A stretch of 64,000 nt of DNA, taken from assembly GCA_011772755.1 (NCBI GenBank), contig WVYX01000244.1, positions 15,960 to 79,959 on the forward strand, written 5' to 3'. Under the pieces are notes generated by a model, which did no database searches, was not told the DNA's origin, and saw only the letters and a list, made by a program, of their open reading frames with translations. Made by a program: the position numbers and the translations under genes. Shown piece by piece: positions 20,421-24,424 of this stretch; the stretch's first letter is position 1, and each line of letters starts with the position of its first letter. The stretch is from Gemmatimonadales bacterium (GTDB lineage Bacteria > Gemmatimonadota > Gemmatimonadetes > Gemmatimonadales > GWC2-71-9).

Positions 20421-20510
20421 TACCGCCCGGTCGGTTGCGTGCGGCTCCAGAAGAAACTACCATGCCGAAGGAGTCGGAACCACCGCCACTTTTTGATAAC
20501 TGAGGGCACC

Positions 20511-21839
20511 GTGTCCTGGGAGTATGCGCCGGAGTTCGACGCCGCCCATCGCGCCGCGCTGCAGAGTGGGAAAAGCCTAGTCTACGTATCCCCTCCGGTG
20601 GGTTGGGCGATCCTGCCACTCCTGCGGCGGCTGTGCCGCACCGATGGCTGCGGTATCCAGACACTAGTGCTCGTCCCCGATCTCAGCGAAGCAGCCGATC
20701 TCTCGGACCAGATCAGGTCACTCGAGACGCTCCGCCCGGTACACGTGGCCAGTGGGCTGGCTCGCACGGGTCGGCTGGTGAAGGCGGGGCGGGTGCGCAC
20801 CTTGCTGGCGACACCCGCCGACGTAGTGCAACTGCTGGCGCGCTCGATCGTCAGGCTCGAAGCGCTATCCCGCGTGGTGGTGCTCTGGCCGGAAGCCCAG
20901 TTGCTGCTCGGCGCCGCCGAGTCGATCGACACCGTGCTGGCCGAATGCACCGGCGTGCAGCGGCTGGTCGCCACCGCCGACGTGTCGGCGGTGGACGACT
21001 TCGTTGAGCGACATGCGCGACGCGCCCCCAGGGTCACGGCTGCGAGCATACCAGAAGCACCGATCGGGCCGGCGCTCTACGCGCTCGTCAGCCGGCAGCG
21101 CCTGCAGTGGGCGGTCCGCGCCACCCTCGACAGCCTCGATCCCACCTCGGCCCTCATCTGGGACCCTGGTCCCGCTCCGGAGGCCCGCTGGTCCGAGCAT
21201 GCCTTGGACCCCAACGTGCGGTTCGGAGCGGATCCCAGTTCAGAGCCCGTAGACTTGGCGCTGGCGGTGGAACTCCCCTCCGCTGAGGTACTCGGGGCAT
21301 TGCTCGGCGCCGCCCGCAAGGTGGCCGTATTCGCACGACCGGCTCAGCTGTCGTATCTCCGCCGCCTGGCCCGGCCCCTGGAGGTCTTGCGTCTGCCTCA
21401 CGAGGCCGACCGAGCACGAGACCGTCTCACAAGGTTCCGAGAAGCCGTTCGAGGGCAGCTAGAAGAGAGTGACTACTCACATGACCTCTTGGCGCTGACC
21501 CCACTATTTGATGAGTACGATCCGGCGCTGGTGGCAGCGGCCCTGCTGCGGGCCCGGGAGCCCGAATCGGCCCCCCAGCCGTCTGCTCCCGTGGCGGTCC
21601 CCACCTGGGTTCACCTCCACCTCAACGTGGGCAGGCAGGACCGGGTCCGGACGGGTGACGTGGTGGGTGCTCTCCTCAATGCGGTGGGACTATCGAGGGA
21701 CCACATCGGACGGGTGGAAGTGCGGGAGAGCTTCACGGTGGTGGAGGTACGCGAGGAAGCCGCACACCGGGCGCTCCAAGGGCTGCAGGGCGTGCCGCTG
21801 CGCGGACGTACCGTGGCCGTCCGGTTCGATCAGCGATAG
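20511..21839 (+). CDS. DEAD-box-helicase-like protein with eroded motifs plus DbpA-type RNA-binding domain
   Basis: C-terminal VHLHLNVGRQDRVRTGDVVGALLNAVGLSRDHIGRVEVRESFTVVEVREEAAHRALQGLQGVPLRGRTVAVRF (DbpA RBD-like). The core reads like a helicase but lacks GKT and DEAD. GTG start inferred. Confidence 0.7.
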   Translation: MSWEYAPEFDAAHRAALQSGKSLVYVSPPVGWAILPLLRRLCRTDGCGIQTLVLVPDLSEAADLSDQIRSLETLRPVHVASGLARTGRLVKAGRVRTLLATPADVVQLLARSIVRLEALSRVVVLWPEAQLLLGAAESIDTVLAECTGVQRLVATADVSAVDDFVERHARRAPRVTAASIPEAPIGPALYALVSRQRLQWAVRATLDSLDPTSALIWDPGPAPEARWSEHALDPNVRFGADPSSEPVDLALAVELPSAEVLGALLGAARKVAVFARPAQLSYLRRLARPLEVLRLPHEADRARDRLTRFREAVRGQLEESDYSHDLLALTPLFDEYDPALVAAALLRAREPESAPQPSAPVAVPTWVHLHLNVGRQDRVRTGDVVGALLNAVGLSRDHIGRVEVRESFTVVEVREEAAHRALQGLQGVPLRGRTVAVRFDQR

Positions 21840-23161: not shown

Positions 23162-24424
23162 ATGCTCAACGTCGCGCTCACCGGTAACGTCGCCTCCGGC
23201 AAATCCATCGTAGCCCGGCATTTCGCGGAATGGGGCGCCACCGTCATCGACGCCGACGAGCTGGTTCGCGAGGCACAGCAGCCGGGTTCGGAGACCCTAG
23301 CCGCCATTGTCGACCGCTTCGGTCGAGACGTGCTCTGCCCAGATGGGTCCCTGGATCGCGGCGCCCTGCGACGCAAGGCGATGGGAAACGAAGAATCCCT
23401 CGCGGCACTGAATGCCATCGTGCATCCCGTGGTGCAACAGCGCCGGGCGGAACTCGCCACTGCGACCGCTGCTCGTGGCGACTGCGTGCTGGTGAACGAC
23501 ATCCCGCTGTTGTTCGAGGTGCTCAACCCGGACGACTTCGATCTCGTGGTCCTGGTAGATGCGCCGGTCGAGCTGCGCCACCGGCGCCTAACCACGCTCA
23601 GGGGCATGCCCGCGGAGGAGGCCGATCACCTCATTGCCGCCCAGGCGCCGACCGACCGGAAGCGCGAGCGCAGCGATATCGTGCTCGACAACGCAGGTAC
23701 GCTCGCCCAACTGGAAGATGCTGCGCGGGGGGCTTGGCGGTCGATCCGGGCCCGCGCTGCCGCCCGACTCGCTGGCCGCGGCGGGCCGCTCCTCGCAGTC
23801 ACCGCGCATCCGGATGACGCCGCGTTCGCCATCGGCGGAACCTTGGCACGGTACGCCGATGCGGGCATCGAAACGCACCTGGTGTGCGCGACAGCTGGTG
23901 AGTCTCCGCGTGAGCTGAGTGAGGATGCCTCGCTCTTGGGGCTGACCGGAACCGTCGGCCTCGGGTACTCAGCCGGCACGCTCGAGTCCCACGACGCGTC
24001 GGCCGTCAACGCCCTGGCCCACGCCATCCGGCGGATTGCGCCAGCCGTGATCGTCACGTTCGGCGCCGACGGCGGCAACGGGCATCGCGATCACGTCGCT
24101 GTCCACCAGTGGACGCACCAGGCATCGTCCCAGGCGCGCTCGGCGTGTTCCCTATTCTATGTCGCCTATCCCGAACCGGTGGCACGACGCATCTCCAGCA
24201 GACTCCGCGGTACGCCGGACCGGCAACTCGCCGCTCGCCTCGACGTGCGACCCTGGCAGGATGTGAAACGCGCCGCCAACGCCGCGCACGCCTCTGGCGA
24301 TGCACCGTTCGACCTCGACGACCCGTCGGCGAGCCCGCCGATGGAACGAGAATGGTACGCCGCCGAACGCGCAGCTATTGGGCTCGAGACAGACCTCTAT
24401 CAGGGACTCGAACGGCGCGGTTGA
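23162..24424 (+). CDS. Dephospho-CoA kinase / PIG-L (LmbE) deacetylase fusion
   Basis: N-terminus MLNVALTGNVASGKSIVARHFAEWGATVIDADELVREAQQPG...VHPVV (CoaE); C-terminus LLAVTAHPDDAAFAIGGTLARYADAGIETHLVCATAGESP...GHRDHVAVH (PIG-L). One uninterrupted ORF. Confidence 0.88.
   Translation: MLNVALTGNVASGKSIVARHFAEWGATVIDADELVREAQQPGSETLAAIVDRFGRDVLCPDGSLDRGALRRKAMGNEESLAALNAIVHPVVQQRRAELATATAARGDCVLVNDIPLLFEVLNPDDFDLVVLVDAPVELRHRRLTTLRGMPAEEADHLIAAQAPTDRKRERSDIVLDNAGTLAQLEDAARGAWRSIRARAAARLAGRGGPLLAVTAHPDDAAFAIGGTLARYADAGIETHLVCATAGESPRELSEDASLLGLTGTVGLGYSAGTLESHDASAVNALAHAIRRIAPAVIVTFGADGGNGHRDHVAVHQWTHQASSQARSACSLFYVAYPEPVARRISSRLRGTPDRQLAARLDVRPWQDVKRAANAAHASGDAPFDLDDPSASPPMEREWYAAERAAIGLETDLYQGLERRG

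Follow-up and report, generated by a model that had tools for sequence, protein, structure and literature searches.

A putative RNA-binding pseudohelicase of Gemmatimonadota with a DEAD-box fold and no ATPase motifs

Introduction

Pseudoenzymes are seldom described among helicases, and a family of pseudohelicases raises the question of what role a DEAD-box fold can play without ATP. This question is posed by a single gene in the window, the 64,000-nucleotide stretch of Gemmatimonadales DNA analysed here, which the first-pass annotation had described as a degenerate DEAD-box protein with an intact DbpA-type RNA-binding domain (RBD). The word "pseudohelicase" is itself rare in the open literature, where it denotes one eukaryotic RNA protein and one bacterial DNA protein and appears in one further passing mention; the part of that literature searched, the coverage of which was incomplete, yielded no earlier description of a bacterial DEAD-box RNA pseudohelicase. 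Based on sequence comparison and structural models, the protein is best explained as a CsdA/CshA/Hera-type pseudohelicase, that is, an ATP-independent, dimeric RNA-binding scaffold that would assist assembly or act as a chaperone, with rRNA as its most likely substrate. We assign this reading a probability of roughly 0.6.

The gene and its annotation

The gene is defined as follows.

20511..21839, + strand: pseudohelicase gene; GTG start, stop codon at 21837-21839, product of 442 aa, start supported by relatives

The frame is open from GTG 20511 through the stop codon, and the start is backed by the same-genus loci L002 and L003, whose reading frames extend no more than a few codons further upstream. 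In Pfam, the product matches the DbpA domain (PF03880) at residues 369-438 with an E-value of 1.7e-20, which bears out the proposed RBD at the C-terminus, and the DeaD dimerization domain falls below threshold at residues 303-347. NCBIfam returns a weak CshA match at residues 35-148 (E 0.0017), and a PDB sequence search with the protein retrieves DbpA, YxiN and CshA. Pfam thus labels the protein by its RBD only, so that the core remains invisible to routine annotation.

Fold and domain architecture

To characterize the core, an AlphaFold2 model was generated from a 32-sequence alignment (mean pLDDT 90.8) and analysed with Foldseek, and profiles were compared with hhalign. The following domains were assigned.

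20511..21044, + strand: RecA1-like domain, catalytically degenerate (aa 1-178; AlphaFold2 pLDDT 93, Foldseek, hhalign E 6e-16)
21048..21398, + strand: RecA2-like domain (aa 180-296; hhalign E 6e-6 alone; motifs IV-VI absent, and with them the arginine finger)
21399..21566, + strand: dimerization domain of the DeaD/CsdA/CshA type (aa 297-352; PF25399, hhalign, three AlphaFold2 helices)
21606..21836, + strand: DbpA-type RNA-binding domain (aa 366-442; PF03880, E 1.7e-20; present in 32/32 members of alignment A1)

The full-length model has DbpA (7pli, E 1.2e-18) as its top match, and also matches CshA (5ivl, E 4e-13); the full-length TM score is low, about 0.4, as expected from domain orientations that differ. 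The isolated RecA1 model (pLDDT 93) reaches TM scores of about 0.72-0.80 to domain 1 of Hera, CshA, eIF4A and DbpA. In profile comparison with active Gemmatimonadota DEAD-box helicases, the whole length of the protein is aligned with an E-value of 3.6e-39. To rule out that the RBD alone drives this score, domains were also compared one by one, giving E-values of 8e-18 for the core without RBD, 6e-16 for RecA1, 6e-6 for RecA2 and 3e-8 for the dimerization domain. By these profile and model comparisons, the likeness of the core to DEAD-box helicases exceeds chance. Predicted fold and profile homology both point to tandem RecA-like domains of the DEAD-box type, and structure prediction gave this fold where an unrelated one would have spoken against the first-pass annotation.

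Such a dimerization domain typifies Hera, CshA and CsdA (PMC7721647, PMC3695512). PF25399 is matched in 6/32 members of the alignment, with a best E-value of 3e-5, and does not reach the Pfam cutoff in the window protein itself, where three helices make up the domain in the AlphaFold2 model. As predicted from sequence and model, the architecture is RecA1-RecA2-dimerization-RBD, as in CsdA/CshA/Hera. The presence of this domain implies descent from a helicase of that type, and makes DeaD/CsdA/CshA-type helicases, rather than DbpA in the strict sense, the nearest relatives. The DbpA-like identity originally proposed therefore stands for the DEAD-box fold and the DbpA RBD, and fails for strict DbpA kinship, the dimerization domain having been overlooked.

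The family shares with CsdA/DeaD, CshA and Hera the layout of two RecA domains, a dimerization domain and a C-terminal RNA-binding extension, which in the window protein is a DbpA-family RBD, as well as whole-length profile homology to Gemmatimonadota helicases of that type. It differs from them in lacking any ATPase or helicase motif and in having an acidic rather than basic core. In the case of DbpA/YxiN, the likeness consists of the top Foldseek match, the related RBD and a retained I-G-x-V guanine-binding loop, whereas the CsdA/CshA-type dimerization domain, the loss of catalytic motifs and the variable position of YxiN Lys427 set the window protein apart.

Loss of the ATPase motifs

Motifs Q, I (GKT), II (DEAD), III (SAT) and VI (HRxGR) are all absent from the window protein. 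The peptides quoted in the first-pass annotation are all present, in helicase-motif order, and alignment with active helicases confirms the placing of motifs I, Ia, Ib, II and III and the reading of these motifs as eroded. Former motifs I, II and III lie as follows.

20589..20609, + strand: former motif I (Walker A), replaced by a shortened SPPVGWA (aa 27-33) that lacks GKT, placed by alignment with active helicases and intermediates
20886..20894, + strand: former motif II (DEAD), replaced by Trp-Pro-Glu (aa 126-128), placed by alignment
20964..20981, + strand: former motif III (SAT), where LVATAD (aa 152-157) immediately follows the invariant Arg151

A GKS at residues 20-22 was considered as a residual Walker A and rejected, since it precedes the strand at residues 23-26 in the predicted structure and aligns before motif I.

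Motifs were scored for 55 dead members and 11 active helicases on one alignment. The catalytic glutamate of DEAD is found in 0/55 dead members and 11/11 active controls, and the same counts apply to the arginine finger of motif VI (the second Arg of HRxGR); the degeneration noted in the window protein is thus conserved among its relatives. Throughout the window's order (f1-f3, n=32), the Q-motif Gln, the Walker A Lys, the first Asp and the Glu of DEAD and the arginine finger are all absent, and motif I is a shortened Pro-Pro loop with a P-loop about four residues shorter. Together with the RBD, these losses strongly predict that the window protein is catalytically dead and binds RNA.

RNA binding and proposed function

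The RBD has a pI of 11.3, compared with 5.8 for the core, and is 38-41% identical to DbpA RBDs. YxiN and Hera read guanine through backbone amides in a loop of the form I-G-x-I/V (PMC3695512). This loop is kept in the window protein as I399-G400-R401-V402, with G400 invariant in 32/32 sequences. Meanwhile, the position of YxiN Lys427, with numbering mapped by hand and residues taken from PMC3695512, is variable across the family (N 11, K 9, R 5, G 5), and the Hera RBD binds the same 23S fragment without reading the hairpin 92 loop (PMC3695512). Hairpin 92 of 23S rRNA, for which DbpA and YxiN are specific, is therefore only a possible target of the window protein, and ribosome assembly is a guess by descent. 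As no ribosome-assembly gene was found among the neighbours, the link to rRNA is likewise by descent only; by that route, a role in ribosome assembly is plausible.

The f2 members L033, L034, L037 and L040 have no RBD and carry R/G-rich tails instead, and some f2-type relatives carry both an RBD and an Arg/Gly-rich tail. The RBD is therefore not indispensable everywhere, and its replacement by such tails suggests that RNA binding may be the retained property, with the RBD as one way to achieve it. Long Arg/Gly-rich, probably disordered tails were also observed in L036, an f2 locus grouped with the RBD-less ones, and in L020, L031 and L039.

In the proposed mechanism, ATP hydrolysis would have been lost in an ancestor inside the class, and the nucleotide pocket would have been lost entirely afterwards, in the window's order. 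The protein would form a dimer via its dimerization domain, the basic RBD would anchor it to structured RNA, and the frozen RecA pair could serve as a platform on which a partner protein or an RNA strand is held independently of ATP. The pseudohelicase would then work in assembly or as a chaperone, and its most likely substrate would be rRNA. Gemmatimonadota have retained the gene over a very long period, probably in this scaffold role. A far more specific version, in which a leader-autoregulated factor of ribosome assembly or translation, present in most of a class, lost first catalysis and then nucleotide binding, works independently of ATP and can act even where a genome has no active DEAD-box helicase, is doubtful when taken as a whole.

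Two known systems offer precedents. Utp25/Def is a pseudohelicase of the eukaryotic SSU processome with a two-RecA DEAD-box fold and vestigial, dispensable motifs (PMC9539457), and so provides a case of a dead DEAD-box protein in ribosome assembly with a fold common to the window family. It differs in being eukaryotic, with a long disordered N-terminus and no DbpA RBD noted, and in having functional data, whereas the window family is known from sequence. In the case of Deinococcus radiodurans PriA, motifs are eroded across a bacterial phylum and nucleic-acid binding is retained (PMC4504706). The window family shows the same phylum-wide pattern, whereas PriA is a DNA helicase of replication restart with a known role.

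Active DEAD-box helicases in the same genomes

A dead helicase may also be a regulator of active DEAD-box helicases, either by forming heterodimers with them or by competing through its RBD for the same RNA sites. The dimerization domain and the RBD are indeed common to the pseudohelicase and to active Gemmatimonadota helicases (L041, L045), and an active-type DEAD-box helicase occurs in 90/101 genomes of the window's family. Most of these, however, are matched over the helicase core alone and not over the RBD region, and the RBD-less active helicases L110 and L113 have no dimerization domain match. Furthermore, genome G019 (99% complete) contains the pseudohelicase and no active DEAD-box helicase at E 1e-20, and the window's own genome (85% complete) likewise yielded none; its PF00270 matches resemble Lhr, RecG, RecQ, Mfd, PriA, SecA, SNF2-like and DinG-like proteins (named by eye from motifs and length). 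An active partner is therefore not needed in every genome, which makes the regulatory reading unlikely. The pseudohelicase carries the only DbpA RBD in the window's genome.

Among genomes at least 90% complete, 4/50 lack an active-type DEAD-box helicase at E 1e-20, G019 among them. G019 (HRbin33-like), G006 and G073 are near-complete genomes with no DEAD-box RNA helicase at this threshold, which seems unusual at such a genome size.

Leader element and promoter

Two candidate control elements precede the gene.

20435..20463, + strand: putative promoter, with -35 TTGCGT (20435-20440), a 17-bp spacer and -10 TACCAT (20458-20463), assigned by consensus only
20491..20505, + strand: leader element TTTTGATAACTGAGG, spanning the Shine-Dalgarno and ending 5 nt before GTG; order consensus CTTTGACAAYCGAGG

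TA(G/C)CAT is found again upstream of the gene in many relatives. The consensus CTTTGACAAYCGAGG is common to most f1/f3 orthologs (L002-L013, L018, L021-L030, L066-L084), usually 5 nt before the GTG start, and is kept across genera with proteins only about 30-58% identical. Leader scores of at least 11/15, which are common in f1/f3, are reached by about 1% of upstream regions after shuffling. Searches for a 14-base version gave a single site in the window's genome and in each of four further genomes, always at the pseudohelicase gene; when two mismatches are allowed, a few extra sites appear in some genomes, with 0-1 in reversed-pattern controls. No conserved RNA structure was found in the leader (-0.29 kcal/mol, no compensatory pairs). 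The near gene-specific occurrence of this element suggests dedicated post-transcriptional control, and autoregulation through it is a guess.

The leader also bears on a reading in which the protein, instead of being a ribosome-assembly factor, regulates translation or acts at the mRNA level by binding to its own leader and to further mRNAs. The position of the element beside the start codon and its unique or nearly unique occurrence per genome fit such a role, but a sequence that contains the Shine-Dalgarno and folds into no conserved structure may merely tune translation, and we consider this reading quite unlikely.

Surviving intermediates and the order of motor loss

Outside the window's order, some dead members retain parts of the nucleotide pocket. 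In lineages f6 and f9, the Q-motif Gln is kept in 7/7, the first Asp of DEAD in 7/7 and the Walker A Lys in 6/7 (f6, 3/3; f9, 3/4), these being the only lineages with this lysine; examples combine ASSGSGKT with VVDGAS. Four f6/f9 members match the Pfam DEAD domain (9e-13 to 5e-17), which has no match in the window protein. In family f5, the Q motif is kept in 9/9 and the Walker Lys is absent. From the distribution of these states we infer a stepwise erosion of the motor, with hydrolysis lost first and nucleotide binding later. Such living intermediates make the order of DEAD-box motor shutdown testable by comparing extant orthologs. In a maximum-likelihood tree, one branch (SH-aLRT 100) separates 59 dead rows from 11 active rows; as the method infers no root, the tree favours one origin for all dead members but does not prove it.

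These intermediates could bind ATP without hydrolysing it, since they retain the Q motif, GSGKT and the Asp, and Trp-Pro-Glu is conserved at motif II of the window's relatives (W 28/32, P 26/32, E 26/32). Both observations would suit a protein that keeps a non-canonical ATP-dependent activity, as an ATP-binding clamp or through hydrolysis with unusual residues. The absence of the key ATP residues from the window protein and all 32 order members, with the shortened P-loop, nevertheless makes this very improbable for the window protein.

Distribution and selection

With the window protein as query, a match was found in 40/41 genomes of the order. A profile match in 383/395 genomes of the phylum is an upper bound, since the profile also picks up active helicases that carry an RBD; its use as an exact presence count was rejected, and presence was judged from the order-level count and from ORFs inspected one by one. 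In public genomes, a set of seven closer sequences retrieved 15 named loci, 14 of them under the titles Gemmatimonadota, Gemmatimonadetes or Gemmatimonadales and the remaining one under "Bacterium HR33"; a plasmid search returned DbpA RBD matches only. Among the genomes searched, the family has so far been found only in Gemmatimonadota, probably across most of a class.

Sequence conservation indicates that the pseudohelicase is upheld by selection across lineages and is not decaying. The dN/dS ratio between relatives is about 0.24-0.35, with synonymous sites partly saturated, and in five of six pairs the RBD has the lowest dN of the domains. Although the loss of all catalytic motifs might recall a pseudogene in decay or a spurious ORF that resembles helicases by chance, this reading is negligible given the low dN/dS, frames intact in nearly every relative, a kept gene order and eight residues invariant across 32 sequences (R85, L108, R151, A172, A342, A344, G374 and G400).

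In most of the order, the upstream neighbours are an aminotransferase and S58 peptidase (divergent), and the downstream neighbours are a convergent HU gene, thymidine kinase, CoaE, GcvH and GcvP; HU is still close by in several deeper families. In several of the f5 genomes G263, G377, G069, G150 and G137, the pseudohelicase has a DEAD-box helicase match on the opposite strand, about 3-5 kb away, perhaps as a trace of an old local duplication. In the window, a single ORF at 23162-24424 (+ strand) encodes CoaE (aa 4-182) fused to a PIG-L/LmbE-type deacetylase (aa 211-321), and the CoaE ORF of the same-genus locus L115 is seemingly shorter, about 220 aa.
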